A stretch of 61,145 nt of DNA from a virus: IMG/VR virus record IMGVR_UViG_3300022920_000542, positions 1 to 61,145 of that record; one strand, 5' to 3'. Under the pieces are notes generated by a model. The model had not been told where the DNA came from and ran no database searches. It worked only from the letters and a program-made list of their open reading frames with translations. Position 1 is the stretch's first letter, and each line of letters starts with the position of its first letter. Made by a program: the position numbers and the translations under genes. Below, piece after piece: positions 3,029 to 57,887 of the stretch.

Positions 3029-3071
3029 GATAATGCTCAATGAGATTATCTAGAATGCTCAATCGAGATTC
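3029..3071 (+). ncRNA. Tandem bulged-G hairpins in the dnaK leader
   Basis: Two stem-loops lie in tandem. The first (3029-3050) pairs GATAAT with ATTATC and CTC with GAG across an AAT loop, leaving a single unpaired G at 3035. The second (3053-3071) pairs GAAT with ATTC and CTC with GAG across AATC, again leaving one unpaired G (3057). The hsp20 leader has the same design with different outer-stem bases. The function could be mRNA protection or a protein-binding operator; this is inference. Confidence 0.6.
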
Positions 3072-3105
3072 AAACAAACTAACAAAATAAAAAGAGGAAT
3101 AGAAA

Positions 3106-5037
3106 ATGGCTAAAGTAATTGGCATTGATTTAGGTACATCGAACAGTTGTGTTGCGGTGGTAGAAGCAGGAGAACCAAAAGTGATAACCAACTCAGAGGG
3201 AGCAAGAACTACCCCAAGTATAGTTGGATTTGCAAAAGACGGACAACGACTTGTAGGTCAGGCCGCAAAAAGGCAAGCAATCACTAATCCAGAGAATACA
3301 ATTTTTTCTGCGAAACGTCTTATTGGACGAAAATATAAAGAGATAAAGAAAGAAGTTAAAAATCTTCCTTATTCTGTTGTATCTGGTAAAAACGGAGATG
3401 CATACATCAAATGCAAAGATGGTGACGAAGAAAAAGAATATGCACCTGAGTTTATCGCAAGTATTGTTCTTGGTAAATTAAAAGCAGATGCAGAAGCATA
3501 TCTCGGAGAAGAAGTAACTCAAGCAGTTATTACCGTACCTGCATACTTTAACGATTCTCAACGACAAGCAACAAAAGACGCAGGTGAAATTGCAGGACTA
3601 GAAGTATTACGTATCGTTAATGAACCGACCGCTGCATCTCTTGCATACGGATTAGAAAAGAAAAATGAAGAAACCATTGCAGTTTACGACCTTGGTGGTG
3701 GAACATACGATGTATCTATTCTTGAAATAGGTGACGGAGTATTTGAGGTAAAGTCTACTAATGGTGATACACAATTGGGTGGTGACAATTGGGATGATAC
3801 TCTTATTGATTATCTTGTATCCGAGTTCAAGAACGAGTCTGGAATTGATTTACATGAAGATGGACAAGCAATGCAACGTCTTAAAGAAGAAGCAGAAAAA
3901 GCAAAAGTTGCTTTATCATCAAGTGCGTCCACCACAATAAATCTTCCATTTATTACGGCAGATGCAAGTGGACCAAAACACTTAAACATCGATGTTACTC
4001 GTAGCAAGTTTGAACAAATTTGTGATTCTTTATACCAACGGACAAAAGAACCTTTTGAAAAATGTCTTGATGATGCGGGTATCACCATGAGTGATGTTAA
4101 AAACCTCATTCTCGTTGGTGGAATGACTCGTAGTCCCAAGGTTGTAGAAATTGCAAAAGAACTTGCCGGTGGTAACGATCCACACCAAGGAGTTAATCCC
4201 GATGAGGTAGTTGCCTTGGGTGCGGCCATTCAAGGTGCGATTCTTGCAGGAGACGAGGGTGTAAGTGATGTTTTGTTGCTAGATGTAACCCCACTTACTC
4301 TTGGAATAGAAACGCAAGGTGGTGTGTCTACACCAATGATAGAACGTAACACTACAATTCCAACCAAGAAGTCACAAATATTTACAACTGCAAGTGATAA
4401 TCAACCTGAAGTGGACATCGTTGTGCTTCAAGGAGAACGAGCAATGTCTGCTGATAATAAGAAACTCGGGAATTTCAAGTTAGACGGAATACAATCTGCT
4501 CCAAGAGGAACACCCCAAGTTGAAGTTACCTTTGATATTGATGCAAATGGTATTTTGAATGTAAGTGCAACTGATAAAGGAACTGGTAAAGATCAAAAAA
4601 TTACTATCAGTGATTCAAGTGGACTTGACAAAGACGAAGTTGAAAAAATGAAGGCAGATGCTGAAAAGTATGCCGATGAAGATAAACAAAAGAAAGAAAA
4701 AATTGAACTTCGTAATCAAGTAGAGTCGGGTGTTTATCAAATAGAAAAAATGCTCGAAGATAACAAAGAAAAAATTCCAGAAGACGAAGTTAAACAAACC
4801 AACAAACTTCTTGAGACTACTAAAAAAGAACTTGAAGATGCAACGATTGAACCCCATAAGTTGACTGAGTTATCAAAAAACTTAATGGATCATGTCCAAA
4901 CATTAATTCCTCATACACAACCTGATGAATCACAAGAAACTACCGATAGTGATGAAGAAATACCTACTAGCAATGATGAAGATGTAGTTGACGCTGATTT
5001 TGAAGTCGTGGATGAAGAAGAAAAAACTTCTAGTTAA
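3106..5037 (+). CDS. dnaK: Molecular chaperone DnaK (Hsp70)
   Basis: This is a full-length 643-residue bacterial-type DnaK. Signatures are IDLGTSNS at the N-terminus, the [10 protein letters not shown] phosphate loop, [12 protein letters not shown], the linker near [13 protein letters not shown], and the acidic tail ending close to the bacterial [12 protein letters not shown] form. It is an ATP-driven folding chaperone. No dnaJ or grpE is in the window, so it probably uses host co-chaperones. It has an AGAGGA ribosome site seven bases before the ATG, a leader with two bulged-G hairpins, and a strong terminator after the stop, so it is a single-gene unit. Recent acquisition from a bacterial host is plausible. 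Confidence 0.97.
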
Positions 5038-5056
5038 AAATAATAAATTTATTTTT

Positions 5057-5087
5057 AAGGTGAGGATTATGTCCTCACCTTTTTTTT
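5057..5087 (+). terminator. Rho-independent terminator after dnaK
   Basis: GGTGAGGA pairs with TCCTCACC around the loop TTATG, extended by AA/TT pairs, and is followed by eight T residues. Confidence 0.95.
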
Positions 5088-5119
5088 GTCTAAAAATATA
5101 AATATGTATATATACACAT

Positions 5120-5302
5120 ATGAGTAACCCACTAACTGATCCGTGGAAGGTATGGACAAACGAAAACCTTAAACTTGGAGTCTCACCTACTAAAATATTT
5201 GGAATTCTGGTTAATAATAACTTTGATTTGAATGAGATTATAGAAGAACTGAATCGATTAAAAGATGCCAACCAATCCACTGATTTATCCAGAGACACAT
5301 AA
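5120..5302 (+). CDS. Hypothetical protein, 60 residues
   Basis: This short acidic protein has a middle segment (SPTKIFGILVNNNFDLNE) that reads like a small helical domain. I do not recognise it. It follows the dnaK terminator and is preceded by an AT-rich stretch (TATATATACACATATG) without a clear ribosome site. Confidence 0.55.
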   Translation: MSNPLTDPWKVWTNENLKLGVSPTKIFGILVNNNFDLNEIIEELNRLKDANQSTDLSRDT

Positions 5303-5325
5303 TCACGATCAACCTATAGTCGTGA
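5303..5325 (+). other. Small stem-loop after the 60-residue gene
   Basis: TCACGA (5303-5308) pairs with TCGTGA (5320-5325) around an 11-base loop. No T-run follows, so it is not a standard terminator. It could be a weak stop or processing site. Confidence 0.3.
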
Positions 5326-5387
5326 CAGATGTGATCATATAACCCAAATAAAAAACCATTCAAACTATTATAAAAACTATTTTTTAT

Positions 5388-5396
5388 AATATTTAT
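5388..5396 (+). promoter_or_regulatory. AATATTTAT box before 5401
   Basis: AATATTTAT-GAGC-ATG. The four-base spacing to the ATG at 5401 matches the set described in the findings, and argues for 5401 as the start over the overlapping ATG at 5395. Confidence 0.5.
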
Positions 5397-5400
5397 GAGC

Positions 5401-5595
5401 ATGGGATATGATGATACTGATATTGTAGTGCGTATAAAATCGCAAGTGTATAAATTAAAACACAGAAGAATTGAAGGTTTTGTTGATAAATCTTTGTTAT
5501 CTGCGTGTTTAATAAATGAAATTAAATATTTATTTTCATTATTAGGCAAAGATTTACAAAAAGAAATATTAAAACAACCATGGCTGGATGAATAA
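5401..5595 (+). CDS. Hypothetical protein, 64 residues
   Basis: A small basic, probably helical protein starting MGYDDTDIV that I do not recognise. An in-frame ATG at 5395 would add two residues, but it overlaps the AATATTTAT box. Its stop is immediately followed by the ATG of the phosphomannomutase gene, so the two are probably expressed together. Confidence 0.6.
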   Translation: MGYDDTDIVVRIKSQVYKLKHRRIEGFVDKSLLSACLINEIKYLFSLLGKDLQKEILKQPWLDE

Positions 5596-6282
5596 ATGAA
5601 TTATGTGTTTGATGTAGACGGAACTCTAACTCCAAGTCGTTTAAAGATGGATGTGGAGTTTGAGAAGTTTTTTAGAAACTGGATAAAAGATAAGAATGTT
5701 TATCTTTTAACTGGATCTGACCACGACAAAACAATAGAGCAGGTTGGAGTTAACATCTGGAGTGAAGTGACCGAATCACATCAGTGTGGTGGTAACGTTG
5801 TTTTTAGAAAAGGTGACATGGTAGAAGTAAGTAAGTGGCAACCGAGTAAAAGTCTACTCGACACCTGTAAAAACCTAATTAATATCAGCAAATATTCTAT
5901 TAAAGCAGGAAACCACATAGAAGAACGAGTCGGACTTCTTAATATAAGTGTAGTTGGAAGAAATTGCACACAACAACAAAGAGAAGACTACTACGAATGG
6001 GACAAAACCAACAAAGAACGAGAATTTATTTGTCAGGCAATAAACAAAATGTTTCCGGAGTTAGAAGCAAGTGCAGGAGGTCAGATCAGTGTAGATATCC
6101 ATAAATTTGGTAAAAACAAGTCTCAAATAAGAAGAAAAATTGAAGGAGACATTTGGTTTTTTGGGGACAAAACAATGAAAGGTGGTAATGATTACCCAAT
6201 TGCAAATATACTAAAAGATCCTGATAAAGTGTTTCAGGTAGATGATTGGGAACATACATACAAACTTTTAAAAGAAATTTAA
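5596..6282 (+). CDS. Phosphomannomutase, eukaryotic-type (HAD superfamily)
   Basis: The 228-residue protein has the HAD nucleophile motif FDVDGTLTPSR and a long stretch typical of eukaryotic PMM1/PMM2: ISVVGRNCTQQQRE, YEWDKTNKERE, GGQISVDIHKFGKNKSQ and FFGDKTMKGGNDYPIAN. The family converts mannose 6-phosphate to mannose 1-phosphate, the precursor of GDP-mannose. It differs from the bacterial ManB/AlgC phosphomannomutase family. The partner gene 6285-6731 is a nucleotidyltransferase-like protein two bases downstream. The enzyme may feed the sugar and glycosyltransferase island at 37-50 kb. Confidence 0.9.
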   Translation: MNYVFDVDGTLTPSRLKMDVEFEKFFRNWIKDKNVYLLTGSDHDKTIEQVGVNIWSEVTESHQCGGNVVFRKGDMVEVSKWQPSKSLLDTCKNLINISKYSIKAGNHIEERVGLLNISVVGRNCTQQQREDYYEWDKTNKEREFICQAINKMFPELEASAGGQISVDIHKFGKNKSQIRRKIEGDIWFFGDKTMKGGNDYPIANILKDPDKVFQVDDWEHTYKLLKEI

Positions 6283-6284
6283 TT

Positions 6285-6731
6285 ATGTCAGATAAGCTTA
6301 TCAAAGGATTTACGTGTGGGGCAATGGACGTATTTCATGCGGGTCATGTGCTTATGATGGAAGATTGTAAACGACACTGCGATTATTTAATTGTAGGATT
6401 GCATACAAATCCTCAGTTGGATAGAGCAGACAAAAACAAACCAATTCAATCAGTTGTAGAAAGATATATACAACTGCGTGGAAGTAAGTTTGTTGACGAA
6501 ATAATTCCATATGAAACTGAATCGGATTTGATTGAAATTCTTAAAGGTATTGATTATGATGTTAGGTTCGTTGGAGACGATTGGAAAGATAAACCTTTTA
6601 CAGGACATGATTTACCAGGACATTTGAATAAAGTGTTGTACAACTCTAGGCAACATGATTATAGCAGTTCTGCGTTGAGGCGTAGAGTCGCACAGGGAGA
6701 AACAAAAGAAAAGAAATCTAAACGTAAATAA
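6285..6731 (+). CDS. Cytidylyltransferase-like nucleotidyltransferase
   Basis: The 148-residue protein has the HxGH nucleotidyl-transfer motif in GAMDVFHAGHVLMM and the SSSALRRRV motif near the C-terminus. This is the glycerol-3-phosphate cytidylyltransferase / heptose-phosphate nucleotidyltransferase layout. It would activate a phosphorylated sugar or polyol with CTP or ATP; the substrate cannot be told from sequence. The ATG at 6285 lies two bases after the phosphomannomutase stop. The C-terminus is lysine-rich. Confidence 0.85.
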   Translation: MSDKLIKGFTCGAMDVFHAGHVLMMEDCKRHCDYLIVGLHTNPQLDRADKNKPIQSVVERYIQLRGSKFVDEIIPYETESDLIEILKGIDYDVRFVGDDWKDKPFTGHDLPGHLNKVLYNSRQHDYSSSALRRRVAQGETKEKKSKRK

Positions 6732-6740
6732 AATATATAT

Positions 6741-6749
6741 TATATTTAT
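6741..6749 (+). promoter_or_regulatory. TATATTTAT box before 6789
   Basis: TATATTTAT lies 39 bases before the ATG at 6789. The leader contains a possible weak pairing of TCAC with GTGA just before the start codon. Confidence 0.4.
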
Positions 6750-6788
6750 ATTCAAATAAAGGTTATGTTCACTTAATGATGATGTGAT

Positions 6789-7259
6789 ATGAACTTTATT
6801 TATTTTATTTGTCCAGAAAACCAACAACTAGCAAAATATTGCGAAGGATTTTATAACTATTTAACATACGGATATAAAACTTGGAGTCGTGATCGGTATG
6901 TTCAATCTTCACCGAAGGAGAAAGTGGGGAAATCACGTATGTTGATGAAAAAGAATGTTCCTCAGTATGAGGAAATGAAGGCAGGTGATTCGGTTCTTGA
7001 TAGAATTTACAAAAAAGTAATCACAAGTGATTGCTACGAACACTCGTATAGTAGATTAACAGACCTAGATATACACAAAAGTGAATTAATAATATTTATC
7101 ACATCATGTAAGTCTCCAAAAAGACCACCCACTTATTTATATACAAAAACAAATTCTGTTATTATGTGGAAGGTATCTAATGTAGATAAACTCAGTGACA
7201 ATAAATACCAACTACTTGAGTCGTTGATCCGAAAACTTGCAAAACCCAATCAATCGTAA
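6789..7259 (+). CDS. Hypothetical protein, 156 residues
   Basis: I do not recognise this protein, which starts MNFIYFICPENQQLAKYC. It is soluble and basic with several aromatic residues. It overlaps convergently by 10 bases with the stop end of the large metallopeptidase-like gene on the other strand, and no terminator is seen between them. Confidence 0.7.
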   Translation: MNFIYFICPENQQLAKYCEGFYNYLTYGYKTWSRDRYVQSSPKEKVGKSRMLMKKNVPQYEEMKAGDSVLDRIYKKVITSDCYEHSYSRLTDLDIHKSELIIFITSCKSPKRPPTYLYTKTNSVIMWKVSNVDKLSDNKYQLLESLIRKLAKPNQS

Positions 7260-9679
7260 AGATTTTCTACAAGTTCTCCGAAGTTACGCATAATGATACC
7301 AGCACACGCATTTGCTTCGTTCTCTATATCACTTCCTGTTTGACCACTATCCACTTCAAGAACTCCTAGTTCGTTTTGCTTTTGGTGTACCAATTCGTGT
7401 GCTAAACTTCTACATACATCGGGAAATGCTCTGCCTTTTGTATATATAGAAATTTCATTTGTATTGGGATCATAACAAGCAGCTGTCATATGTTCGTGTC
7501 TTTGTGTTAAAAGTTTCACAGATACCTTTTCTTTTAATTGCAAAGCTTTTCTTGCAAACTTGATAAACTCATGAACATTATCTTTGTTCATTGCGACTTC
7601 GTTTAATGATTCTTTTGTATATTTCATATTCATTTCGTTTATATTTGCTCCACCTGTTCTGACAATTTCACGAAAGAACCAACGAGTCCACTCTCCTAGT
7701 TTGCCTGGTCCTTTTACTATATATAGTTTAAATGCTTCTGCAAATGCTTCTTCTGGATTTGTATTTCCGTAGTTGGTAATGTGTTCAATTGGAATTTCTT
7801 TACCGGGTCCAACCCATCTATCTGCTAATTTTGTTACAACTTCTTTTCTGTTCTCGGTTGACCAAACGGATGTCATTTGTAATGCTTTGAACTTTGCTTT
7901 GGTCTCGGCGTTGGTTTCTTTTTTATCAATGACTTTTAATCCTACTCGTCTTTTATGTATCTTGCTTCCATTCTTATCAAAATACTTTTCTACATAATCT
8001 TCTACATCTTTACGTTCAATAGATACTTTCTTGCTTTTAATTGTATCTTGCCAATGCTTCTTTGCATTAGATGGAACATTACGATACCAAAAACGATGAC
8101 CAAGTTCGTGAGTGAATGTGTCTTGGGTCATTCCACATCCATATAACTTGAGCATATCTTTATTCATGTAATACTCACCGTTAACCATATCGTTGCTATT
8201 ATCTGATGTTAATCCAAAATCCAAATCAACCACCAATCCATCAATACATTTTCCGAAACCTGCTTTTTGAATTTGCTTTGACCAATGCTTGATTCCATTT
8301 ACTAAACCCTTGAAACTTTTTTCACGACTTGCTTCTCCTTGTTCTGTTCCACCTTTTCGTTTGAAGTTGTGAATAACCAACTTGACAGGTCCTATTTGTG
8401 CTTGTTCAATTGGTTTTTCTCGTTCTTGATCACCTTCTATTGCGATGTATTGAAGAAGTGCTTTGATACCTTCACGAAATTGGGTTCTGTATCTTCTGAT
8501 ATTGGTTTCTCGTTCTTTGGCTAATCTATGTGGACTTACACGATGCTTTTTATCTATAAAGTCCCACATCTCTGGAAAATTTCCACCAAGACCCGTAACT
8601 GCACCCCAGCATTTTTCACGAACTTCTTTTTCTTCCCAGGTTTCCATCTTCTTACCACTCGCACCTGTATGCTTATACTGCAAAAAGAATTTGTAAACCC
8701 AATTCTCAAAGTTTTCTTGAAATGTACCGAATGCTCTTCTTACTTTTTTAAAGTCCTTGATTGTCTGTGGGTCTTCACTATTATCACCAATTGATTTGTA
8801 TGCTTTAGTAAGAACTCTTAAATCTGTTGCCCACTTCTTTACTGAGTTGCTATCAACCTTTACTTTGTCTTCTGAAATGATTTCCGACAGATTACCTTTT
8901 TGTATATACATATATAAACCTGCTAATCGTTTCTTAAACTTCTTGAGATATTTACTGTTGATATATGTAAGAAAGTCTTTATCAAAAAACTCTACATCAA
9001 TTGCCCAATCTTGAAATGATTTGTAACTTTCTAATTTTTTCTTTTTAAAGTCGGCAAGAAATTCCGGACGATGTGCAAACCGATCAGATAGATTTTTCCA
9101 TACACGAACTATCTGAGATTGTCCTGCTTGATAATATGCATTAAATTCTTCTGGTGTGTTGTAGTATCCTTCTATATCTTGTGTATCTAAGTACTTGGCA
9201 CTTGTTTTACCTAAACCACGATCACGATACCTTAAATGATCCAGAAAGTGTATATATTCGTGAATGAATGTATCTTTATCAAGACGAGTGTCCATATACT
9301 TACCATTGTATTCACCGATTAGATTGGCATTTACAATTACACCTTTAAATGATATTCCCCCAACTTTCAAACTTTTGTTTGTAAAACCACCTGCGATTGT
9401 TACTCCACCACGTGATGTACTTTTTGTTGGAATGAAAAATAATACTACCTCACTTAAAGACGGAAAGTTTTTATCTATGTCTGTTCCTCTAAGAGCAACA
9501 CCTTTCCATTGTGTAAGTGGTATAAATGGTTTGTTGACTATACTATTCTCACCTTCACCTTCTAATTTATCTTTATGTTTAGTTAAAAACCGCACCACTT
9601 TATCGTATGCTTTTTCGGCAATACCTGTGTAATACATATCTTGCTCTACATTTGCTTCTTTTATATGGGTGCTATTCAT
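7250..9679 (-). CDS. Large protein with three HExxH zinc-metallopeptidase motifs
   Basis: The 809-residue protein carries three separate zincin motifs: TFIHEYIHFLDH (HExxH near residue 140), DTFTHELGHRFWYR (near 524) and SLAHELVHQKQNE (near 761). Each is followed by a glutamate-rich helix that could give a third zinc ligand: PEEFNAYY (near 178), NPEEAFAEAF (near 641) and IENEANA (near 786). This reads as three gluzincin-like domains in one chain, joined by charged helical linkers. I do not recognise the whole architecture. Possible roles are proteolysis of virion or host proteins, or cell-wall attack. There is no signal peptide. The ATG at 9679 is 5 bases after an AATATTTAT box, which suggests late expression. 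Confidence 0.85.
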   Translation of the reverse strand: MNSTHIKEANVEQDMYYTGIAEKAYDKVVRFLTKHKDKLEGEGENSIVNKPFIPLTQWKGVALRGTDIDKNFPSLSEVVLFFIPTKSTSRGGVTIAGGFTNKSLKVGGISFKGVIVNANLIGEYNGKYMDTRLDKDTFIHEYIHFLDHLRYRDRGLGKTSAKYLDTQDIEGYYNTPEEFNAYYQAGQSQIVRVWKNLSDRFAHRPEFLADFKKKKLESYKSFQDWAIDVEFFDKDFLTYINSKYLKKFKKRLAGLYMYIQKGNLSEIISEDKVKVDSNSVKKWATDLRVLTKAYKSIGDNSEDPQTIKDFKKVRRAFGTFQENFENWVYKFFLQYKHTGASGKKMETWEEKEVREKCWGAVTGLGGNFPEMWDFIDKKHRVSPHRLAKERETNIRRYRTQFREGIKALLQYIAIEGDQEREKPIEQAQIGPVKLVIHNFKRKGGTEQGEASREKSFKGLVNGIKHWSKQIQKAGFGKCIDGLVVDLDFGLTSDNSNDMVNGEYYMNKDMLKLYGCGMTQDTFTHELGHRFWYRNVPSNAKKHWQDTIKSKKVSIERKDVEDYVEKYFDKNGSKIHKRRVGLKVIDKKETNAETKAKFKALQMTSVWSTENRKEVVTKLADRWVGPGKEIPIEHITNYGNTNPEEAFAEAFKLYIVKGPGKLGEWTRWFFREIVRTGGANINEMNMKYTKESLNEVAMNKDNVHEFIKFARKALQLKEKVSVKLLTQRHEHMTAACYDPNTNEISIYTKGRAFPDVCRSLAHELVHQKQNELGVLEVDSGQTGSDIENEANACAGIIMRNFGELVENLYD

Positions 9680-9684
9680 CAAGT

Positions 9685-9693
9685 ATAAATATT
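9685..9693 (-). promoter_or_regulatory. AATATTTAT box of the triple-zincin gene
   Basis: On the minus strand it reads AATATTTAT-ACTTG-ATG. A second TATATTTAT copy lies further upstream (plus-strand positions about 9702-9710). Confidence 0.5.
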
Positions 9694-9728
9694 AACTACC
9701 TATAAATATATACATTTTATATAAGTAC

Positions 9729-9761
9729 AAAAAAAAGAACCAATCCTAGAATTGGTTCTTT
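9729..9761 (-). terminator. Terminator of the clamp and clamp-loader transcript
   Basis: AAAGAACCAAT pairs with ATTGGTTCTTT around a six-base loop. Read on the minus strand it ends in eight T residues (the A-run at 9729-9736). It would stop leftward transcription after the 38-residue gene. The plus-strand reading has only a weak T-run. Confidence 0.85.
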
Positions 9762-9782
9762 AATATAACCTTTGGTTTTGTA

Positions 9783-9899
9783 TTACTCGTTACCGGTTAG
9801 AATATACCAAACTTGTAAACAAATAATAAAACTAAATGCAACTATTCCACCAAGTAGTTCATAAACTGCGTATAACCTATTTTTTAGATTCTTATTCAT
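9783..9899 (-). CDS. Small membrane protein, 38 residues, coupled to the clamp-loader gene
   Basis: The ATG (9899) overlaps the TGA stop of the clamp-loader ATPase gene as ATGA, the arrangement of translationally coupled genes. The protein is MNKNLKNRLYAVYELLGG at the N-terminus, followed by one hydrophobic segment (IVAFSFIICLQVWYIL) and a short NE-containing tail. It sits where T4 has gene 62, but it is far too short to be gp62. The function is unknown. Confidence 0.7.
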   Translation of the reverse strand: MNKNLKNRLYAVYELLGGIVAFSFIICLQVWYILTGNE

Positions 9900-21765: not shown

Positions 21766-22491
21766 TTAATTTTTTGACTCAACCTGATAATTGTCGGGAA
21801 GATTACCCCGTTCTGCATCCCGTTTTGCTCTATGTGATTTTATATGTTCAAGAACACTCGGATCAACATTTTTAGTTTCAGACTGACCACCATTTGTCTC
21901 TTTCACAATTTTATTAACAGGTTGAAATCCAGTTTCTACATCTGTTAATGATGCAGAGTTTTCGGTGGTTTTCTTTGTGTCAGAGTATCTTGTTTGTGTG
22001 GGTGGCATACTTGCTTCGGTTAATTTTTCTGGATTGATCTGCAAATCAGATGTCGTTGCAATATTTTCTATTGTATCGTGAATATCACTATATTTTTTTT
22101 GAGAATAAACTTGATTGTTTATCGTAATATTCTTTTTTGTTTCTGTGTTCACAATGTTTTTGTCAGTAACCTTAATCAAAGACTCGATTTCTTCTTCAGT
22201 AACTTTCTCAACTACATTTTCAGTTGTGGTTGTTTCAGTTGTAGTTAAATCTACTGTTCTAAATTCATCATCTGATTCAGTTTCGTCTGTTGATTTAATT
22301 TTATTTCTAAGATGATTTTCAAAAACCGATAGCAGACCCGTTACAGGTTTTTTATCAAATGACTCTTCATATTTATCTTTATCTTGTAAAGAGTCTACTG
22401 ACATTTCCTGTACCGGATCTACTTTTTTATTTTTTTCTGAAAATCCTTTTGCTACTTTTTTAAACTTCTCGTCTATATTATCTAATGACAT
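21766..22491 (-). CDS. Hypothetical low-complexity protein, 241 residues
   Basis: The protein is rich in Thr, Glu, Lys and Asn, with a run of threonines around residue 80-90 (TTTETTTTEN), and is probably disordered for most of its length. I do not recognise it. It has a clear AGGAG ribosome site six bases before the ATG, in contrast to the leaderless genes around it, so it probably sits inside a longer transcript. Confidence 0.7.
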   Translation of the reverse strand: MSLDNIDEKFKKVAKGFSEKNKKVDPVQEMSVDSLQDKDKYEESFDKKPVTGLLSVFENHLRNKIKSTDETESDDEFRTVDLTTTETTTTENVVEKVTEEEIESLIKVTDKNIVNTETKKNITINNQVYSQKKYSDIHDTIENIATTSDLQINPEKLTEASMPPTQTRYSDTKKTTENSASLTDVETGFQPVNKIVKETNGGQSETKNVDPSVLEHIKSHRAKRDAERGNLPDNYQVESKN

Positions 22492-24308: not shown

Positions 24309-24384
24309 GCATCGGTGGCTCGAATGGCTAGGCAAGGGACTGCAAATCCCTATCATGCAGGTTCGAGTCCTGTCCGATGCTCCA
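24309..24384 (+). tRNA. tRNA-Cys (GCA)
   Basis: The acceptor stem GCATCGG pairs with CCGATGC. The anticodon stem is AGGGA/TCCCT with loop CTGCAAA, giving anticodon GCA. The T-arm contains GTTCGAGTC, and CCA is encoded. Confidence 0.96.
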
Positions 24385-24396
24385 TATCAATTTTAT

Positions 24397-24472
24397 GCCA
24401 CTTTAGCTCAGATGGTAGAGCACCTCACTTGTAATGAGGATGTCGTCAGTTCGATCCTGACAAGTGGCTCCA
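24397..24472 (+). tRNA. tRNA-Thr (TGT)
   Basis: The acceptor stem GCCACTT pairs with AAGTGGC. The anticodon stem is CCTCA/TGAGG with loop CTTGTAA, giving anticodon TGT. CCA is encoded. It reads ACA, a common codon in this AT-rich genome. Confidence 0.96.
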
Positions 24473-24480
24473 TTTTATGT

Positions 24481-24557
24481 CGGGATATAGCGTAGCCTGG
24501 TATCGCGCTTGCTTTGGGAGCAAGAGGTCGCAGGTTCAAATCCTGCTATCCCGACCA
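24481..24557 (+). tRNA. tRNA-Pro (TGG)
   Basis: The acceptor stem CGGGATA pairs with TATCCCG. The anticodon stem is CTTGC/GCAAG with loop TTTGGGA, giving anticodon TGG. CCA is encoded. It reads CCA, the proline codon used heavily in the proline-rich tail at 59.7-59.9 kb. Confidence 0.96.
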
Positions 24558-24571
24558 TAGTTTTATTGTTT

Positions 24572-24646
24572 TGCTCGGTAGCTCAGTGGCAGAGCAGGTG
24601 ACTGTTAATCACTTTGTCGTTGGTTCGACCCCAACCCGAGCAGCCA
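24572..24646 (+). tRNA. tRNA-Asn (GTT)
   Basis: The acceptor stem TGCTCGG pairs with CCGAGCA. The anticodon stem is GGTGA/TCACT with loop CTGTTAA, giving anticodon GTT. CCA is encoded. Confidence 0.95.
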
Positions 24647-25801: not shown

Positions 25802-25810
25802 TATATTTAT
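25802..25810 (+). promoter_or_regulatory. TATATTTAT box before 25815
   Basis: TATATTTAT-AGAC-ATG, with a four-base gap. Confidence 0.55.
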
Positions 25811-50046: not shown

Positions 50047-50052
50047 ACTTGT

Positions 50053-50080: not shown

Positions 50081-50083
50081 CAA

Positions 50084-50281: not shown

Positions 50282-50286
50282 TTACG

Positions 50287-50295: not shown

Positions 50296-50324
50296 ACCTA
50301 ACATGAAAAAAAAAATTATAAAAA

Positions 50325-50678: not shown

Positions 50679-50705
50679 AATTCTTCGTAATATTATTTAA
50701 TTAAA

Positions 50706-50714
50706 TATACTTAT
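50706..50714 (+). promoter_or_regulatory. TATACTTAT box before 50719 (one mismatch)
   Basis: TATACTTAT-AGAT-ATG. It differs from the common box at one position but keeps the four-base gap. Confidence 0.4.
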
Positions 50715-50718
50715 AGAT

Positions 50719-51009
50719 ATGGATAATATAACTTTTCAAATTCCAAAAGACAACAAATCTTTAAAAAAAGATATAAGTAAACGAAAATACGAATACATGA
50801 AGCATATATACGAGTGCTTTAAGCAAATAGACGAAAATTCTATTCCCGATAAACTGAATATTTTCGCATTCAAAAGCACTAATTTAGAAATAGTAGTTAA
50901 AAAAGAAAGTTACGAAATTAACTTGAAAAATTTAATAAACTATTTTAGTAATATAGAAGAGTATGAAATTTGTACAGTACTTAGTAATAAGCTTAATTCG
51001 CTTAAATAG
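50719..51009 (+). CDS. Hypothetical protein, 96 residues
   Basis: A small charged protein (MDNITFQIPKDNKSLKKD) that I do not recognise. It precedes phoH in the same direction by about 65 bases. Confidence 0.7.
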   Translation: MDNITFQIPKDNKSLKKDISKRKYEYMKHIYECFKQIDENSIPDKLNIFAFKSTNLEIVVKKESYEINLKNLINYFSNIEEYEICTVLSNKLNSLK

Positions 51010-51073
51010 AATAATAATAATATAGACTTATAAGTATAAGACAACAATACTGTCATAACGTGGAGAAATAACG

Positions 51074-51829
51074 ATGTCAAGAAAAAAAACAAAAACTGTA
51101 AATAAGAATCTACTTGCAAATGCTCACATAGAAGAAGAAATGCAGGAAAACCAACTAACTCCTCTTAGAAAACTTAAAATAAAATTAAATAAAAAGTTTA
51201 CTAAAAAGCAAGAAGAGTTAAACAAGATTGCATTGGAAAAGGATACGAAACTTATATTCATTGACGGTCCTGCAGGTACGGCAAAAACATGGTTGAGTGT
51301 TTATTGTGGGTTGGAATTATTTCAGAACCAACAAATAGAAGAAATGATATATGTTAGAAGTGCTGTGGAAAGTTCTGATCAAAAACTTGGATTTCTTCCA
51401 GGAGCACAAGACGATAAAATGGCTCCCTACTTAGAACCATTTAAAGATAAACTAGAAGAACTTCTGAACCCCATTGACATAAAATACTTACAAGAAGAAG
51501 AACGTATATACGGTATACCTGTAGGATTTCTCCGAGGAGCTAGTTGGGAGAATAAATTCATACTTGTAGATGAAGCACAAAATTTATCAGAAAAAGAAAT
51601 GATTACCATAATGACACGTATAGGTGAAAACTGTAAAGTATTCATATGTGGTGATGTCATGCAGAGTGATATTGGTAATCGTAGTGGGTTTAATAGTATA
51701 CTCAACTTATTTGAAGATGATGCCTCAAAAAAACAAGGAATTCACACATATAAATTCACAGAAGAAGATATTGTGAGAAGCAAATTGGTAAAATTTATAA
51801 TTACTAAGTTAAAAAGTTTACCAAAATAA
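51074..51829 (+). CDS. phoH: PhoH-family ATPase
   Basis: The 251-residue protein has Walker A in FIDGPAGTAKTWLS, the FLPGAQDDKM loop, Walker B in NKFILVDEAQNLS and the C-terminal VFICGDVMQSD block of PhoH ATPases. PhoH is common in marine T4-like phages; its role is not settled, although RNA metabolism and phosphate stress have both been proposed. It has a GGAGA ribosome site. Its leader contains a short GACA/TGTC hairpin at about 51041-51054. Confidence 0.95.
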   Translation: MSRKKTKTVNKNLLANAHIEEEMQENQLTPLRKLKIKLNKKFTKKQEELNKIALEKDTKLIFIDGPAGTAKTWLSVYCGLELFQNQQIEEMIYVRSAVESSDQKLGFLPGAQDDKMAPYLEPFKDKLEELLNPIDIKYLQEEERIYGIPVGFLRGASWENKFILVDEAQNLSEKEMITIMTRIGENCKVFICGDVMQSDIGNRSGFNSILNLFEDDASKKQGIHTYKFTEEDIVRSKLVKFIITKLKSLPK

Positions 51830-51856
51830 TATTTATATATCATAAAACAATATATG

Positions 51857-51865
51857 TATATTTAT
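51857..51865 (+). promoter_or_regulatory. TATATTTAT box of the fibre operon
   Basis: TATATTTAT lies 28 bases before the ATG at 51894. It probably serves the block 51894-57150. Confidence 0.5.
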
Positions 51866-51893
51866 AGATTCACATACTTTTAGAAATTTACGC

Positions 51894-53789
51894 ATGGCCA
51901 ACCAAAAAATAACAGACCTAAATAGATTAAACAATCTAGATGCAGACGACCTGTTTATAGTTGTTGACACCGACTCCAAGTCCAACTCAGCGTCCCCAAC
52001 GGGTGAGACCAAGGGAATCTCAGCTGGATCACTTGCAGCGGAGTTAAATAAAATAGCAAATAACGAAGTGGGTATTGACTTTAAGCACCTACGTGATGTA
52101 CCTGATACATACGAAGAAAACAAAGGGGGGTACATAAAGATCAACAACGATGGAACGGGTATAGAGTTCACAGACTCACCTGGTGCATCAGAGCAAGCAT
52201 TTACAGGTTCGTTCCTTGAAGATCGTGTTAACGGCCAACTACAAGAATATCTAATTGGGGATATTTTATATGTATCTAGTAACAATAAGTTTTCTAAAGC
52301 AAGTTGCACTAGTTTAGGTATGTCAGAGGCAGTTGGTATTATACGTAAAATAAAATACACATCAAATTCTACGGACTCAAACAAACTAATAGAAAAAGTA
52401 AGTGTAGTGTTTAATGGATATATAGAATTTGAATGGGATACTAGTGTTTTAGGTGGTCCTATCTCAATAGAGATGAGACCAATTGATCCAGATGATACAT
52501 CAATAACACGTGTGTACGACAACCAATTACTTGAACCTGGAAAAACATATTTTCTAGGAACGACTGGTAGTTTAATGAATCTAGATCCTGCTGAATTGGT
52601 TAGTTTAGACACAACGGTTTCTAAACCAATGTTAGTTGCGACATCAAAAACAACAGGTATACTTATGAACTACCGTGGACTTGTATGTTCATCCGATGAG
52701 CAATCAAATAAGTTTGTAATATACGAATCATCTGCGTGTAATAGTATAAAAACCGGTGATGTTCTTAGGATAAAACGAAATAAAGTACGTACCTCAGTTG
52801 ATAACTTTATAGTGTCCTCTGACTACGATGATTCGTTATTGTCAGAAAATGTACTACCCAATTTTATTGGTAGGGAAAGTGGTACGACTGAATACGCATT
52901 GTGTAACTCAGCATCTCAACAAAAGACAATATCAACTGTAGACAATCAAAATCCACCGATAGAGGATGACAATTATGGATGTGATATGCTCGGAGTTGTA
53001 ATAAACTCAACGAGTGATTTTTTTGAAATACAAACGAGTGGTATGGTAGAATTCATACCACCTGAATATCAATCAAATGAAACAATCACGTTACCAAGTG
53101 GAGACACTCAACCAGTAAATCGTGAAATACAGGATGGTCTCTTTAAAACCGGATATACATATTACATTGAATCATTTCCAATTAATAGTGATCAACTTGC
53201 ATCAACTAATCAAACCACAGAATTAAGAAACTCCGTATACGATTATTCTACTGAAGAACTAAGTGAATACTATACATCAGGTGAAGGTGGTAACTTATCG
53301 GTTCTTGGTCAGAAATTAAAACCCCTATTAAATGGAACTTCTCCATTCAGAAATACAACAAGCATAGACCCATTTGTACGAGACCACACATCCGGAAAAG
53401 TAGTATCATATTCTAAACCAGCGTTTTACGCAGTTTCACCAAATAAAATTTTAATACTAAATCAACCTGCGTATCCCAACCCAAAAGACCGATGTAACGC
53501 AGTTGACCCAACTACATGGACTCCGTGTACTTACGAGGCACGGGATTCGCATAGTTATACAATAAATCGTCCAAGAGAATTTACGGGCCAAACTGAACTT
53601 GAAAAATTCTCAAGTGATTTCCTTAAAATTGCATGGCCTGAAGCAGGAGCAAATGATAGAAGTGTAATAACTTTCATAATTGAATACACCGAAAACAACG
53701 AAGTAGTTACTAGGTTTGAATCACATGAATTAATAAAAATTGACTCCGTGGACGGTTCTAACTGGAACTACGTAAGGAAATTATCATAA
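51894..53789 (+). CDS. Tail-fibre-like structural protein
   Basis: The 631-residue protein starts with the typical fibre N-terminus pattern (KITDLNRLNNLDADDLFIVV, then KGISAGSLAAELNK). It continues with beta-rich repeats, one of which ends KPMLVATSKTTGILMNYRGL. A matching repeat is present in the protein at 54194. It is a likely host-recognition or baseplate-attached fibre. Its stop overlaps the next start as TAATG. Confidence 0.82.
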   Translation: MANQKITDLNRLNNLDADDLFIVVDTDSKSNSASPTGETKGISAGSLAAELNKIANNEVGIDFKHLRDVPDTYEENKGGYIKINNDGTGIEFTDSPGASEQAFTGSFLEDRVNGQLQEYLIGDILYVSSNNKFSKASCTSLGMSEAVGIIRKIKYTSNSTDSNKLIEKVSVVFNGYIEFEWDTSVLGGPISIEMRPIDPDDTSITRVYDNQLLEPGKTYFLGTTGSLMNLDPAELVSLDTTVSKPMLVATSKTTGILMNYRGLVCSSDEQSNKFVIYESSACNSIKTGDVLRIKRNKVRTSVDNFIVSSDYDDSLLSENVLPNFIGRESGTTEYALCNSASQQKTISTVDNQNPPIEDDNYGCDMLGVVINSTSDFFEIQTSGMVEFIPPEYQSNETITLPSGDTQPVNREIQDGLFKTGYTYYIESFPINSDQLASTNQTTELRNSVYDYSTEELSEYYTSGEGGNLSVLGQKLKPLLNGTSPFRNTTSIDPFVRDHTSGKVVSYSKPAFYAVSPNKILILNQPAYPNPKDRCNAVDPTTWTPCTYEARDSHSYTINRPREFTGQTELEKFSSDFLKIAWPEAGANDRSVITFIIEYTENNEVVTRFESHELIKIDSVDGSNWNYVRKLS

Positions 53790-54181
53790 TGGGATCGTTA
53801 TACGACATAGGAAACTTTAGATATAAACACTTTACATTCTTTTCTTGTAAAACAGAAAACACCGATGGGTGTGATGGTTCTCCACCAAACTCAATTGATG
53901 ACACCGGAAACGATGTTGACGAGATTATAGGATTTCTAGATAGAGTCTGGCCACATAAGGGTATATTCATAGGAGATAGTTCAGAAGGAGACTATTGTTT
54001 TGTTACTTATGTAACACAAAGCTCTGAAAAAATAGAAGTTAAGCAAATTTATGTATACAAACGTGTCCGTGCAGTTAATGTATCAGAAAGCACCGCATCG
54101 GCAACCAAGTATATACTACAATGGGAACGTGTAATTGATCCATTAAAATCACTCAAACCGGGTATTACACAAAATATTTAA
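53789..54181 (+). CDS. Hypothetical small protein of the fibre operon, 130 residues
   Basis: A 130-residue protein (MGSLYDIGNFRYKHFTFFSC) with a beta-rich appearance. I do not recognise it. It is translationally coupled to the fibre gene before it and lies 12 bases before the next, so it is likely a fibre partner or a short structural protein. Confidence 0.75.
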   Translation: MGSLYDIGNFRYKHFTFFSCKTENTDGCDGSPPNSIDDTGNDVDEIIGFLDRVWPHKGIFIGDSSEGDYCFVTYVTQSSEKIEVKQIYVYKRVRAVNVSESTASATKYILQWERVIDPLKSLKPGITQNI

Positions 54182-54193
54182 GGAAAAAAGGTT

Positions 54194-56419
54194 ATGTCAA
54201 ATTCAGCATTCAATATGTCAAAGTGTGGATCAAGTGGAGGTCGTGGTGGTGCGTGTAACCCAAGTGGTTGGGCAACGATACAACCCACAGACGGAAACGA
54301 AATAACAGTCGTATCTGATGACAAGTTAAGAAGTGCACTTAGGGAAATTCACAAAGAGTACTACGGAGACAACAAAGAAGTAGGAGGGTTGAGTTCAGTA
54401 AAAGATCACGTTGACCTTGTTTATGATTGCCCAAAGTCGGGTGACGCAATTTACTTTAACCCAAATAAAAACGGGTGGGACTTGGCATCTGCTGAATTAG
54501 ATAACTCAAATTATTTTGATACAGAGCGGCTTATTGAGTCACTTGCAATAGTAGAAAAAGTGTTAGTTGAATGTAAAGAGGGTGACACGGAAAATAACAG
54601 ACACGAAGCTCGGGTTGTATTTTTCGGAAAAGTCACCTTTCCAGAGGACTCCACTAAGCTACAACCGGGTATCGTTTACTACCTTGCCGACACACTTGCA
54701 CTTTTAAATGAAGCACAAGAAACAAACAGACAATCAGTTACTTCGGGATTAGTAGACACAGGAACATGGAAACGTATTGGATCAAATGTAGTACACTCCA
54801 ACTACGAACCTACAATCAGCAAACCTGTTTTTGTTGCAACGGGTGAACACACGGCAATTGTAACAAACTACAGACCACTCACTGGATCACCAACAGGTGG
54901 ACGGGAGTTATCAGAAGAATACAAAGTTAGAGTTGACCCACATATATATACAGAATCTGACTCGGGTGATATCCTATATACAGGATGGAAAATTAGAGTT
55001 GAAAATACAGGAACTGTTACAAGTAGAAATAACCTAGTTCTTGAAATTGCGTATAACAAACTAGAAGGTTCTCAGGAGAAACGTGACTACGGAGATGGAA
55101 GTGAAGCACACCCAACACTAATTGGAGCAGAAACATATGTCTATCATATAGATATTGGAGTTTTGCACAACGAAGCAGAAGCAAATGTAAAATCTGACGA
55201 TACACTTGTTTCATTTAAAATAATTGATTTTATTCCGTCAGCATTTACAGAAAATACGGGTATAGGGGATGTTAATGTAAAACTTAAAGTAATGACACAA
55301 TCAACTGCAAACATAAGTTTTAGTGATCGTTATAGTGCTCCTGAAGTTTTACTTGCCAACCAAGATGAAATAAAAACAAGCAGACTTGTACCTACATTAG
55401 AGTGGACAGGAAGTTGTGCAGATAATTTACAAAACAACAATGATATTTATGTTAAAGGAAGCACTATATTACCTGCAAACGATGTAGACTATGAAGAAGG
55501 TTCTATATTTGAAGTCAAACTCGTTGACTCAACAACACCTTCGGTTGGTAGTGATGATGTATATGAATTTAAAGTTCCCATGCCATATAACATTGGATTT
55601 AAAATTGACTCCTTGATAGAAAATAGTGAAGGAGACTATGAAAACGATGATCAGTGGACTGATGTAACAGGAACATTCAAGTTAACACTACCCAGTAAAG
55701 AAATGATTGAAATAATTCCAGTTAGTTCGGGTGGACAAACTGTTGTTGAGAAGATATTGAGAATTTCTGCCGTATCTCTTGACGGAAAATCACTACCAGA
55801 TACACACTGGGCAAACCTATACTCTACGAGTCAACTTAAAAATAACAGAGTAGTTTGTTTATCAAACTCATGTTGTATTGATGAGTTTGAACAATTTATA
55901 CCCGAGAACTCTGCAAGCATCGAAAAAAGCATTACTTCAATTCTTACTAATGGAGATTCTCAGTTGTTAAACAATACTGATGGAGCAACATTTTATAGTA
56001 AATCTAATAATGCACAATCATGGCAAGGTTCTAAATCTAGAATTGCAATTTCTTGGAAAAACTTCAGAGAAAATACTGTATTCTGCTATCCTCCTGTGGA
56101 CAACGGAACTGAAGCGTCGTTTATGACGATATACGCAGATGAAGCACGTACAATTGAGTCCATAGAAAACCACGAAAAGACTGATAATGAGTCTACATTC
56201 TACGACCCGAGATATACAATAATGGAAGTTGGTGCTCAGAACACACTAAACGGTCAACTTGTACGGGTCACCGTAAACTCCGGTTCTAAGATTTCAGACG
56301 CACCTGAAACCTGCTTCGTGTTTAAGTTTGTGGGTAGTTTAAAGGGTACACACTTTACCCTCAAAGAATTAAAACACTTTGACCCGTCATACTCCGAACG
56401 ACAAATAAACAAGACATAA
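54194..56419 (+). CDS. Second tail-fibre-like structural protein
   Basis: The 741-residue protein has a glycine-rich start (KCGSSGGRGGACNPSGW) and beta-rich repeats, including LQPGIVYYLADT and KPVFVATGEHTAIVTNYRPL, which match repeats in the 51894 protein. AAGGA precedes the ATG. It is probably another fibre or a distal adhesin. Confidence 0.8.
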   Translation: MSNSAFNMSKCGSSGGRGGACNPSGWATIQPTDGNEITVVSDDKLRSALREIHKEYYGDNKEVGGLSSVKDHVDLVYDCPKSGDAIYFNPNKNGWDLASAELDNSNYFDTERLIESLAIVEKVLVECKEGDTENNRHEARVVFFGKVTFPEDSTKLQPGIVYYLADTLALLNEAQETNRQSVTSGLVDTGTWKRIGSNVVHSNYEPTISKPVFVATGEHTAIVTNYRPLTGSPTGGRELSEEYKVRVDPHIYTESDSGDILYTGWKIRVENTGTVTSRNNLVLEIAYNKLEGSQEKRDYGDGSEAHPTLIGAETYVYHIDIGVLHNEAEANVKSDDTLVSFKIIDFIPSAFTENTGIGDVNVKLKVMTQSTANISFSDRYSAPEVLLANQDEIKTSRLVPTLEWTGSCADNLQNNNDIYVKGSTILPANDVDYEEGSIFEVKLVDSTTPSVGSDDVYEFKVPMPYNIGFKIDSLIENSEGDYENDDQWTDVTGTFKLTLPSKEMIEIIPVSSGGQTVVEKILRISAVSLDGKSLPDTHWANLYSTSQLKNNRVVCLSNSCCIDEFEQFIPENSASIEKSITSILTNGDSQLLNNTDGATFYSKSNNAQSWQGSKSRIAISWKNFRENTVFCYPPVDNGTEASFMTIYADEARTIESIENHEKTDNESTFYDPRYTIMEVGAQNTLNGQLVRVTVNSGSKISDAPETCFVFKFVGSLKGTHFTLKELKHFDPSYSERQINKT

Positions 56420-56424
56420 CAGGA

Positions 56425-57150
56425 ATGGATATAAGTCTTGTTATACCTATATTTAACTTATGTGAATATAGACTACGAAACCTTGCGTACATCTTACACC
56501 ACATTACTAATTCGGATTTATCTCGCAGTATATATGTGATTGAACAGAAATCAGAAAACAACAAGTCACTTGATATTATTAATAGGTTTCCAAATGTAAA
56601 CCATGTGGTATATGATCTAAAACAAACCAGATTCAATAAGTCAATGTTATTAAATGTATACACCAAAACAACGACATCTGATTATGTCTGGATGTATGAT
56701 GTTGATGTGTTTCTGGATGTGGATTATGTGTTATCGCAAATTCCAACTGACATACAACTAGTTAGACCGTTTGAGTTCATACTTCATTTAAACAAACAAG
56801 AAAGTGATTATTTATTCAAGTCAAATTTAATAAAAACAAAAAAATCTGAAAACAAACTAAATCATGCATTTGGAAAATATAGTTTTATATTAAAAACAAA
56901 CTACTTTAAGCAAATAGGTGGATATGATGAAAGATATGAGGGGTGGGGGTTTCAAGATCTTGATTTAGTTTCAAGACTTCCCAAACAAATATATTCAGGA
57001 TATACAAAAAACATAGCATTTCATTTGTTTCACCCAACTGCGTCACGAGAAAACTACAAAAAAAATAAAGAATTGTTTAGTAAAAAGGGAAATTTTAAAA
57101 AACTTATACCAAAAAAGAAGAAAGTGCTTGATAAAAAAGCAAAACTATAA
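56425..57150 (+). CDS. Glycosyltransferase, GT2/GT7-like
   Basis: The 241-residue protein has an N-terminal SLVIPIFNLCEYRLRN strand, the DVD metal site in VWMYDVDVFLD and a GGYDERYEGWGFQDLD segment typical of GT7-type enzymes. It could decorate the fibre proteins encoded next to it. The start follows the fibre stop by five bases. Confidence 0.88.
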   Translation: MDISLVIPIFNLCEYRLRNLAYILHHITNSDLSRSIYVIEQKSENNKSLDIINRFPNVNHVVYDLKQTRFNKSMLLNVYTKTTTSDYVWMYDVDVFLDVDYVLSQIPTDIQLVRPFEFILHLNKQESDYLFKSNLIKTKKSENKLNHAFGKYSFILKTNYFKQIGGYDERYEGWGFQDLDLVSRLPKQIYSGYTKNIAFHLFHPTASRENYKKNKELFSKKGNFKKLIPKKKKVLDKKAKL

Positions 57151-57164
57151 TATAATTTGGTATT

Positions 57165-57836
57165 ATGAAAAAATATACCGAATCACAACTAGAAGAAAAC
57201 TACAAATCCTTTTTAAAGTTTATTGAAGACACATTCACGGGAGAGAGACAAGAAAAACTACTACATATGTTTGGTACGGACGATGGTTGTCTCGGACTTC
57301 GTGCGTTACTTTCCCCTGCATCCAGTATAGATAGATTTCATAACGCATATGACGGTGGATACATAGACCATATTATGGGTGTATGTAAAACAGTGCGTGG
57401 AGTTAAAGTGTTATTACAAAGCATAGGTGCTCACATAGACTTCACAGATGACGAGATGATGTTCGCAGCTTTTAATCACGACCTTGGTAAGTTGGGTTCT
57501 ATTGATGGGGAGCAATATGTACACAACGAAAGTGAATGGCATCGCAAAAACCAAGGTAAGTTGTATAATATAAATCCAGATATTCACTGGATGTCCGTTA
57601 CAGATAGAACAATTTGGTTACTTCAGCATTTTGAAATTAAAATTACAGAAAAAGAGTTTCTGGGGATAAAATTATCTGACGGAATGTATGATGAATCAAA
57701 TCCACAATATCTAAAGGCATTCTCAAAAGAAGTTGGACTAAAAACCGAACTACCACGTGTAATTCACTGGGCAGATCACATGACCTGTTTGGCAGAAAAA
57801 TCAAATATGGATGACATAATGAAGTTTGAACCATAA
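57165..57836 (+). CDS. HD-domain phosphohydrolase
   Basis: The 223-residue protein has histidine and aspartate motifs of the HD superfamily: GGYIDHIMGV (His69), AFNHDLGKL (His105, Asp106), a helix with LLQHFEI and HWADHM near the C-terminus. Family members remove phosphates from nucleotides or cyclic dinucleotides. The substrate is unknown. Confidence 0.88.
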   Translation: MKKYTESQLEENYKSFLKFIEDTFTGERQEKLLHMFGTDDGCLGLRALLSPASSIDRFHNAYDGGYIDHIMGVCKTVRGVKVLLQSIGAHIDFTDDEMMFAAFNHDLGKLGSIDGEQYVHNESEWHRKNQGKLYNINPDIHWMSVTDRTIWLLQHFEIKITEKEFLGIKLSDGMYDESNPQYLKAFSKEVGLKTELPRVIHWADHMTCLAEKSNMDDIMKFEP

Positions 57837-57849
57837 TTTTAATTAACTT

Positions 57850-57858
57850 TATATTTAT
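57850..57858 (+). promoter_or_regulatory. TATATTTAT box upstream of hsp20
   Basis: TATATTTAT with surrounding ACTT...ACACAGA bases closely matching those before dnaK. The bulged-G hairpin starts seven bases after the box. Confidence 0.55.
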
Positions 57859-57864
57859 ACACAG

Positions 57865-57887
57865 AACAATGCTCGTATGAGGTTGTT
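57865..57887 (+). ncRNA. Bulged-G hairpin in the hsp20 leader
   Basis: AACAAT pairs with GTTGTT (one T-G pair) and CTC pairs with GAG across a GTAT loop, with the G at 57871 unpaired. Compared with the dnaK hairpins, the outer stem bases change on both sides while pairing is kept. Confidence 0.6.

Follow-up and report, generated by a model that had tools for sequence, protein, structure and literature searches.

Tandem hairpins upstream of dnaK and hsp20

The virus record IMGVR_UViG_3300022920_000542 was analyzed over its full length of 61,145 bases (in the following the window). It encodes a T4-type family B DNA polymerase and two chaperones, and the leaders of the two chaperone genes share an RNA hairpin design which is the subject of this work. 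The dnaK gene at positions 3106–5037 (+) codes for a full DnaK/Hsp70 (Pfam HSP70, E 6.8e-253; NCBIfam DnaK above cut-off), and the hsp20 gene at 57935–58432 (+) codes for an Hsp20 with alpha-crystallin domain (Pfam HSP20, E 1.7e-18).

Upstream of both genes there are two hairpins in tandem, each interrupted by a single bulged G. In the dnaK leader hairpin 1 spans 3028–3051 (+), with the design GATAAT-G-CTC-AAT-GAG-ATTATC at 3029–3050 and a loop of 3 nt, and is followed at 3053–3071 (+) by hairpin 2, GAAT-G-CTC-AATC-GAG-ATTC, which has an outer stem of 4 bp and a 4-nt loop. Hairpin 1 of the hsp20 leader (57864–57888, +) reads AACAAT-G-CTC-GTAT-GAG-GTTGTT at 57865–57887. An earlier note on this DNA had listed these three hairpins, and their positions and design are as described there; its inventory overlooked, however, the second hairpin of the hsp20 leader at 57890–57913 (+), ACAAAT-G-CCC-AACAT-GGG-ATTTGT, in which CCC/GGG takes the place of CTC/GAG and the loop has 5 nt. 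The note had also placed a box shortly upstream of the first hairpin, and this is correct: the promoter-like TATATTTAT is present at 3015–3023 and 57850–57858 and ends 5 bases (dnaK) and 6 bases (hsp20) upstream of hairpin 1, being part of the sequence match TATATTTATA at 3015–3024 (+) and 57850–57859 (+). The hsp20 box can in addition be read as TTGAAC-18-TATATT, a kind of match which shuffled sequences yield in equal or greater number. Judging from the promoter-like boxes, the element would be located at the very 5′ end of both transcripts.

Boxes of the TATATTTAT type are also found at 25802, 27740, 29327, and 50706 (+), 3–4 bases upstream of the ATG or GTG of other open reading frames (25815, 27754, 29340, and 50719), a spacing that suggests leaderless transcripts or a translational role of the box. 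In the stretches 6741–6810 (+) and 58490–58520 (+) two more TATATTTATA boxes are followed by other possible 5′ hairpins, with a AAATAAAG/CTTTATTT stem and TACGA-TGG-TCGTA, both without the bulged-G design.

Conservation in close relatives

By protein similarity 7 dnaK and 25 hsp20 loci were obtained from IMG/VR; one dnaK locus (L002) starts within the gene and lacks a leader. The two core motifs stand in tandem in 6 of 6 dnaK leaders and in 25 of 25 hsp20 leaders, some of which are near-identical. From the hsp20 leaders we selected 24 distinct ones by the core and not by the stems. All 432 of the 432 alignment cells form standard pairs, and when the partner strand is slid by 1–3 bases the value falls to 31–55%; five pairs are changed on both sides, a number reached by 2 of 500 shuffles. 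When the hairpins of the two genes are taken singly (48 distinct ones), pairing holds in 94.4% of 480 cells (30–53% when slid), and this percentage as well as the covariation score was reached by none of 500 shuffles. An additional two-sided exchange is seen in relative L099, whose hairpin 2 has CTC/GAG where the others have CCC/GGG. The earlier note had claimed a conserved leader RNA element common to two chaperone genes, with the pairing retained while the bases change, and the relatives of both genes bear this out. Loss of the pairing in relatives, which it had set beforehand as the finding that would speak against the element, was looked for and the pairing was found to be conserved.

U-G and G-U pairs are frequent at the stem positions, and the pair below the bulge is U-G in 22 of the 24 hsp20 leaders. 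We therefore think that the element acts as RNA and not as DNA. An inverted-repeat DNA operator bound by a repressor of heat-shock genes, as CIRCE is by HrcA, had been considered as well, and the CTC...GAG arms near a promoter do presumably resemble CIRCE, but a bulge and conserved U-G/G-U stem pairs are features of RNA and not of DNA symmetry. A DNA operator is on these grounds extremely improbable and was dismissed.

Restriction to chaperone genes

A model of the single hairpin, run on both strands of the window with the filters off, found the four hairpins at E 2.3e-6, 1.8e-5, 0.0064, and 0.012 and nothing further below E 2.8; the four hairpins are part of the training set of the model, so that their own scores are expected and the absence of other matches is the informative part. 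In 16 related records (35–170 kb) the model gave 22 matches with E < 1e-4, the next best having E 0.055, and all 22 are located directly upstream of hsp20 (16) or dnaK (6). In the records searched the element is thus confined to chaperone genes. Microcystis phage Mel-JY01 (190 kb), the nearest phage by its DNA polymerase (47.5%), has no match to the unit model over positions 1–50000 and 68198–178000. The bulged-G hairpin is also absent from four dnaK leaders of other huge phages, whose records are not among the Hsp20 matches listed (60 of 506 records in one search).

A second approach used a descriptor of structure only: an outer stem of at least 4 pairs, a one-base purine bulge on the 5′ side, an inner helix of 2–3 pairs, a loop of 3–6 bases and −4 kcal or better. 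Among the 67 gene leaders of the window it matches three, namely dnaK, hsp20 and an A-bulge case at 22491 (−), and over both strands of the whole window it matches 16 places, with 3–11 in six shuffles.

A bacterial origin by sequence was rejected. The tandem core occurs in 104 stretches of genome contigs, the best of which reach E 0.00043 and 0.0022 with the tandem model. Searching with the DnaK and Hsp20 of the window (tblastn) showed no relatives in these stretches, all matches being viral loci, and no chaperone leader is present in the eight contexts printed; we therefore took the 104 stretches as chance matches. The one with E 0.00043 (L130:3177–3223, −) is a near-perfect tandem AATGCTCAATGAGGTT repeat of Alicyclobacillus tolerans, the second copy of which overlaps the ATG of a 494-codon open reading frame, and is probably a chance occurrence or the end of a mobile element.

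Occurrence in other phages

The leaders of more distant relatives were obtained with an Hsp20 profile search, of which the best 80 of 340 relatives were taken (down to 46% identity); the leaders were not used in the search and were read afterwards. A scan of viral contigs with one Hsp20 query returned only the contig of the query. The hsp20 leaders of the relatives show the same hairpin in other letters, with a bulged A for G and with CAC/GTG or TCC/GGA as inner helix. Among named phages the hairpin, mostly with CC/GG, is found in S-BM3, Bellamy, P-SSM5, P-HM1, S-CAM1, S-CAM9, ACG-2014f, S-B43, pelagiphage HTVC115P and the Pseudomonas jumbo phage MIJ3. The design is not peculiar to the phage group of the window.

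The descriptor matches 31 of 35 nonredundant phage hsp20 leaders compared to 5 of 700 shuffles. In this set the leaders L265, L278, L303, and L312 (S-B43), which have at least 25 8-mers in common with a kept leader, had been merged. Leader L313 (MG065686.1, 98625–100999), from a record of Campylobacter phage A18a, consists of E. coli ibpA with its ROSE leader; the Hsp20 is 100% identical to E. coli IbpA, and we therefore took this stretch as likely host sequence in an unverified record and dropped it. L313 is counted in the 35 leaders and 700 shuffles and excluded from the count of 30 in 34 that holds without it. No leader of the 35 has a pyrimidine bulge and 4 have a bulge on the 3′ side. Two separate hairpins (−3 kcal or better) are present in 19 of the 35 leaders and in 0 of 700 shuffles. 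The bulged base of the 30 phage hairpins is G in 19 and A in 11, and in 26 of them a U-G or C-G pair (Y-G) lies below the bulge. Four phage leaders are without the hairpin: L292 and L293 seem by eye to have two-base or mismatched bulges, L315 has a hairpin at −3.3 kcal, and L306 has none.

As a genomic background we used S-BM3, of which three 50-kb pieces of the 169-kb record were taken. A purine-bulge hairpin is present in 4 of 184 minus-strand gene leaders, one being that of hsp20; in the same leaders pyrimidine-bulge hairpins (14) and 3′-bulge hairpins (17) are commoner.

A second phage group (L260–L269), defined by Hsp20 protein similarity, allowed the pairing to be examined again. In an alignment (A6) of ten rows, which were picked after the leaders had been read and in which L262 was kept with a shift of one base, the tandem pairing amounts to 95.6% of 158 cells (23–57% when slid), and 10 cells have double changes, which was reached by 0 of 500 shuffles. 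A model of this group found the hsp20 leader in 7 of 11 records (E ≤ 6e-5), six of which had supplied training rows, and nothing else convincing in the 11 records, the next best match (0.0147) lying inside an open reading frame of L429. A further Hsp20 group (L273–L290 and L303) has a hairpin 1 of the type GCATC-G-CTC...GAG-GATGC, and in many of these leaders AACTTGC follows before AGGAGT and might form a weak UUGC hairpin over the Shine–Dalgarno sequence; by rule a covering UUGC hairpin was found only in L275 among the kept leaders.

Relationship to ROSE elements

ROSE itself is already known. ROSE-like elements have been called the commonest class of RNA thermometers and the function of their 5′ hairpins not fully understood (PMC3669281), and their mark is U(U/C)GCU with a bulged G (PMC3669281; PMC11182007). 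The short ROSE type (ROSE_2; Pseudomonas ibpA, PMC3669281) shares with the window tandem bulged hairpins in a short 5′ untranslated region (UTR) of an hsp20 gene. On E. coli ibpA the consensus of ROSE_2 (RF01832) has in hairpin 1 five pairs, a 1-nt bulge, three pairs and a 5-base loop, and in hairpin 2, which is on the Shine–Dalgarno sequence, three pairs, a 1-nt bulge, three pairs and a 4-base loop. The Y-G pair below the bulge of most phage hairpins likewise corresponds to the pair that the Y of U(U/C)GCU would form with a G of the Shine–Dalgarno sequence. Like ROSE, the window elements are located in the 5′ UTR of heat-shock genes and fall within the two to four bulged-G hairpins of that class; unlike ROSE, they have no 3′ hairpin with U(U/C)GCU over the Shine–Dalgarno sequence, do not score above the Rfam ROSE threshold, and are also present upstream of dnaK. 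Going by geometry and context, we regard the hairpin of the window as corresponding to the upstream ROSE hairpin or as closely akin to it. Among the literature matches listed, ROSE in phages, a form without the Shine–Dalgarno hairpin and a use on dnaK were not seen. The main text of a 2013 article on small heat-shock proteins of viruses (PMC3827213) does not contain the words leader, promoter, mRNA, upstream, untranslated, or thermometer; phage DnaK is already known (moraphages, PMC12619734).

In bacterial hsp20 leaders any bulged-purine hairpin is found in 20 of 32 of an alpha set, 7 of 33 of a gamma set, and 2 of 32 from Bacteroidota, and U(U/C)GCU before the Shine–Dalgarno sequence in 22, 7, and 0. 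If only those hairpins are counted whose end is 24 or more bases away from the start codon, the numbers are 16 of 32, 6 of 33, and 2 of 32, and with the ROSE motif in addition 14, 5, and 0. Start codons were assigned by rule, and duplicates and leaders of less than 90 bases were dropped; the gamma set includes Undibacterium and E. coli ibpB, while E. coli ibpA was excluded by the 90-base rule and read separately.

Other known RNAs were considered. The manA RNA (RF01745; PMC2864571) is known from cyanophages and marine metagenomes, where it precedes ibpA chaperone genes; it has no match in the window at the Rfam threshold, and searches of 14 loci (E ≤ 3) and of four single leaders (E ≤ 10) gave none either. 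In the leaders of the window and in the others that were searched, neither manA nor any other Rfam family reached its threshold. The best match below threshold, that of the DUF2815 RNA on the hsp20 leader (21.8 bits against a threshold of 41.2; E 0.025), was rejected, its alignment in our reading resting largely on an A-rich stretch and the start codon. A phage RNA thermometer, the one cited to Altuvia 1989, is reportedly lambda cIII. The blyA thermometer of SPbeta, also a phage leader with a regulatory hairpin (PMC11182007), is of the fourU class (PMC10586365); neither cIII nor blyA is an hsp20 gene.

Folding around the ribosome-binding site

A working thermometer of the ROSE kind, in which melting by heat frees the ribosome site, requires a hairpin over the Shine–Dalgarno sequence, and here the phages fall into two kinds. 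Under relaxed terms a purine-bulge hairpin covers the Shine–Dalgarno sequence in 13 of the 34 leaders, including 10 of 11 named phage records from cyanophages, the pelagiphage and others. In the eleventh, SA 1306 Kay, a hairpin is missing altogether; S-B43, which had been merged and is outside the 34, has a covering hairpin. Such hairpins arose in 44 of 1000 controls with the upstream part shuffled and the Shine–Dalgarno sequence fixed, and in 2 of the 184 S-BM3 genes, one of which is hsp20. The strand pairing with the Shine–Dalgarno sequence is mostly CTCGCTT or CTCGCTA (CTTGC in MIJ3), which corresponds to U(U/C)GC(U) with bulged G. The predicted probability of being unpaired at this site at 25 °C, written P below, is 0.05 in S-BM3, 0.02 in Bellamy, and 0.05 in S-B43, and intermediate in P-SSM5 (0.30), HTVC115P (0.29), and MIJ3 (0.56). 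For the phages with a covering hairpin the folding predictions make a thermometer likely.

In the window the second hairpin ends upstream of the ribosome site. The Shine–Dalgarno region of dnaK, AGAGGAA at 3093–3099 (+), is predicted to be mostly unpaired and that of hsp20, AAGGA at 57922–57926 (+), to be unpaired (mean P of AGGA 0.87 and 0.95), and no bulged hairpin covers the Shine–Dalgarno sequence of the window hsp20 gene, L257, or L258. Other leaders without a covering hairpin have P of 0.84 (L004 dnaK), 0.81 (L258), 0.82 (L273), 0.92 (L298), and 0.66 (L301). The case is less clear-cut for L017, a relative from the group of the window, which is less open (0.53) despite having no covering hairpin, as is L265 (0.26). 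These folds are rough: for E. coli ibpA, run as a control, P was 0.13, the predicted fold was not the ROSE_2 fold, and the value dropped with heat. As the Shine–Dalgarno sequences of the window are predicted to be open, the leaders do not look like classical thermometers working by plain melting. A plain thermometer is for them, by these predictions, unlikely, and we consider the thermometer improbable as an account of the element.

Phages have in effect split the halves of ROSE: cyanophages and some others have the hairpin that covers the Shine–Dalgarno sequence, whereas the group of the window has the upstream type alone, on two chaperone genes. This natural separation makes the role of the 5′ hairpins testable with small natural variants.

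The leader CTTCGCTTGATAAGGAGG of a second S-BM3 gene, one for a SPRY-domain protein (L319:28871, minus strand), forms a ROSE-like bulged-G hairpin over its Shine–Dalgarno sequence.

Possible function of the element

The best explanation we can offer, with the balance even between its being right and wrong, is a ROSE-type leader RNA that is recognized by a protein and places the mRNAs of both chaperones under joint post-transcriptional control. The element consists of a pair of hairpins in tandem; each has a single bulged purine in its 5′ strand and three (or two) pairs below a loop of 3–6 bases. In the group of the window both are of the upstream ROSE kind that does not touch the Shine–Dalgarno sequence, and the ribosome site is predicted to be open. 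Some protein may recognize the bulged-purine hairpins, limit translation or set the life of the mRNA through the two copies and be released when it is drawn away.

The leading candidate for this protein would be the small heat-shock protein itself. It is a natural suspect because E. coli IbpA, also encoded by a small heat-shock gene with two bulged-G hairpins in the leader, binds its own ROSE-bearing 5′ UTR and represses its own mRNA through that region (PMC10474464). The window Hsp20 differs from IbpA at an essential position, arginine R93, which is replaced by serine. The best family score of the S-BM3 Hsp20 is with IbpA and that of the window Hsp20 with clostridial Hsp18, neither being above cut-off. 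In E. coli, dnaK is not known to be a target of this control by IbpA.

A simpler possibility is that stable hairpins at the start of the mRNA block decay that depends on the 5′ end and so prolong the life of the chaperone mRNAs, with no partner protein. The short distance between the TATATTTAT box and hairpin 1 fits with this, and in 18 of 31 leaders the 22 bases upstream of hairpin 1 contain a −10-like box with no more than one mismatch (gaps 0–16; this figure is without a control). Each gene is moreover directly followed by a terminator-like hairpin (5057–5081, +, for dnaK; 58455–58477, +, for hsp20), and protection has been proposed for hairpin I of Pseudomonas ROSE (PMC3669281). Protection does not, however, need a bulged purine, a conserved Y-G pair, or a restriction to hsp20 and dnaK, and among 35 leaders only 4 have an un-bulged hairpin of the same size class. 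Recognition rather than a 5′ shield is favored by the bulge, the Y-G pair, the tandem arrangement, and the limit to hsp20 and dnaK. For the window these two readings remain, the recognized chaperone-mRNA element at about one half and the 5′ shield, possible and at about a quarter, behind it.

The terminator-like hairpins also bear on an RNA that, like put of phage HK022, binds RNA polymerase and alters pausing or termination. The put RNA has two tandem bulged stem–loops and exerts its effect on RNA polymerase in early transcription; putL is transcribed immediately after its promoter (PMC9378689). The fold of put is, however, longer and complex, comprising about 70 nt, a triplex and long stems compared to hairpins of 19–25 nt here, and with a terminator-like hairpin immediately after each gene there is little left to read through, so that we consider a put-like RNA very unlikely.

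Several results count against protein recognition of a ROSE-type leader. The number of pairs with double changes in the 48 single hairpins was matched by 440 of 500 shuffles, and further pair types do not exceed shuffles either (360 of 500 for the 24 leaders, 67 of 500 for the 48 hairpins). The Rfam ROSE models, which give 100.4 bits with E. coli ibpA as positive control, have no match up to E 10 in the leaders of the window, S-BM3, or Bellamy. Unit model R1 has no match in the hsp20 loci of S-BM3 or HTVC115P, and the kinship with those therefore rests on geometry. In 11 of the 30 phage hairpins the bulge is A, and one of the four huge-phage dnaK leaders passes the descriptor with an AU-rich A-bulge hairpin at −4.1 kcal. 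The R93 column is serine in the window Hsp20 and in 8 of 8 aligned Hsp20s of its kind, while 6 of the 7 aligned phage Hsp20s of the Shine–Dalgarno-hairpin kind have the arginine; thus recognition as by IbpA is not simply transferable to the window. Finally, simple protection of the 5′ end would also favor 5′ hairpins, although it needs neither the bulged purine nor chaperone genes only.

Recognition by a protein can be taken one step further, which is speculative and in our view rather doubtful. The bulged-purine hairpin might be an operator of chaperone mRNAs that is older than and separable from the ROSE thermometer; the small heat-shock protein, or another protein linked to chaperones, would be bound and would sense aggregation and not temperature, and the spread to dnaK in phages would have given a two-gene regulon of proteostasis at the RNA level.

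Other features

Four tRNA genes, for Cys, Thr, Pro, and Asn, are clustered in the window at 24309–24646 (+).

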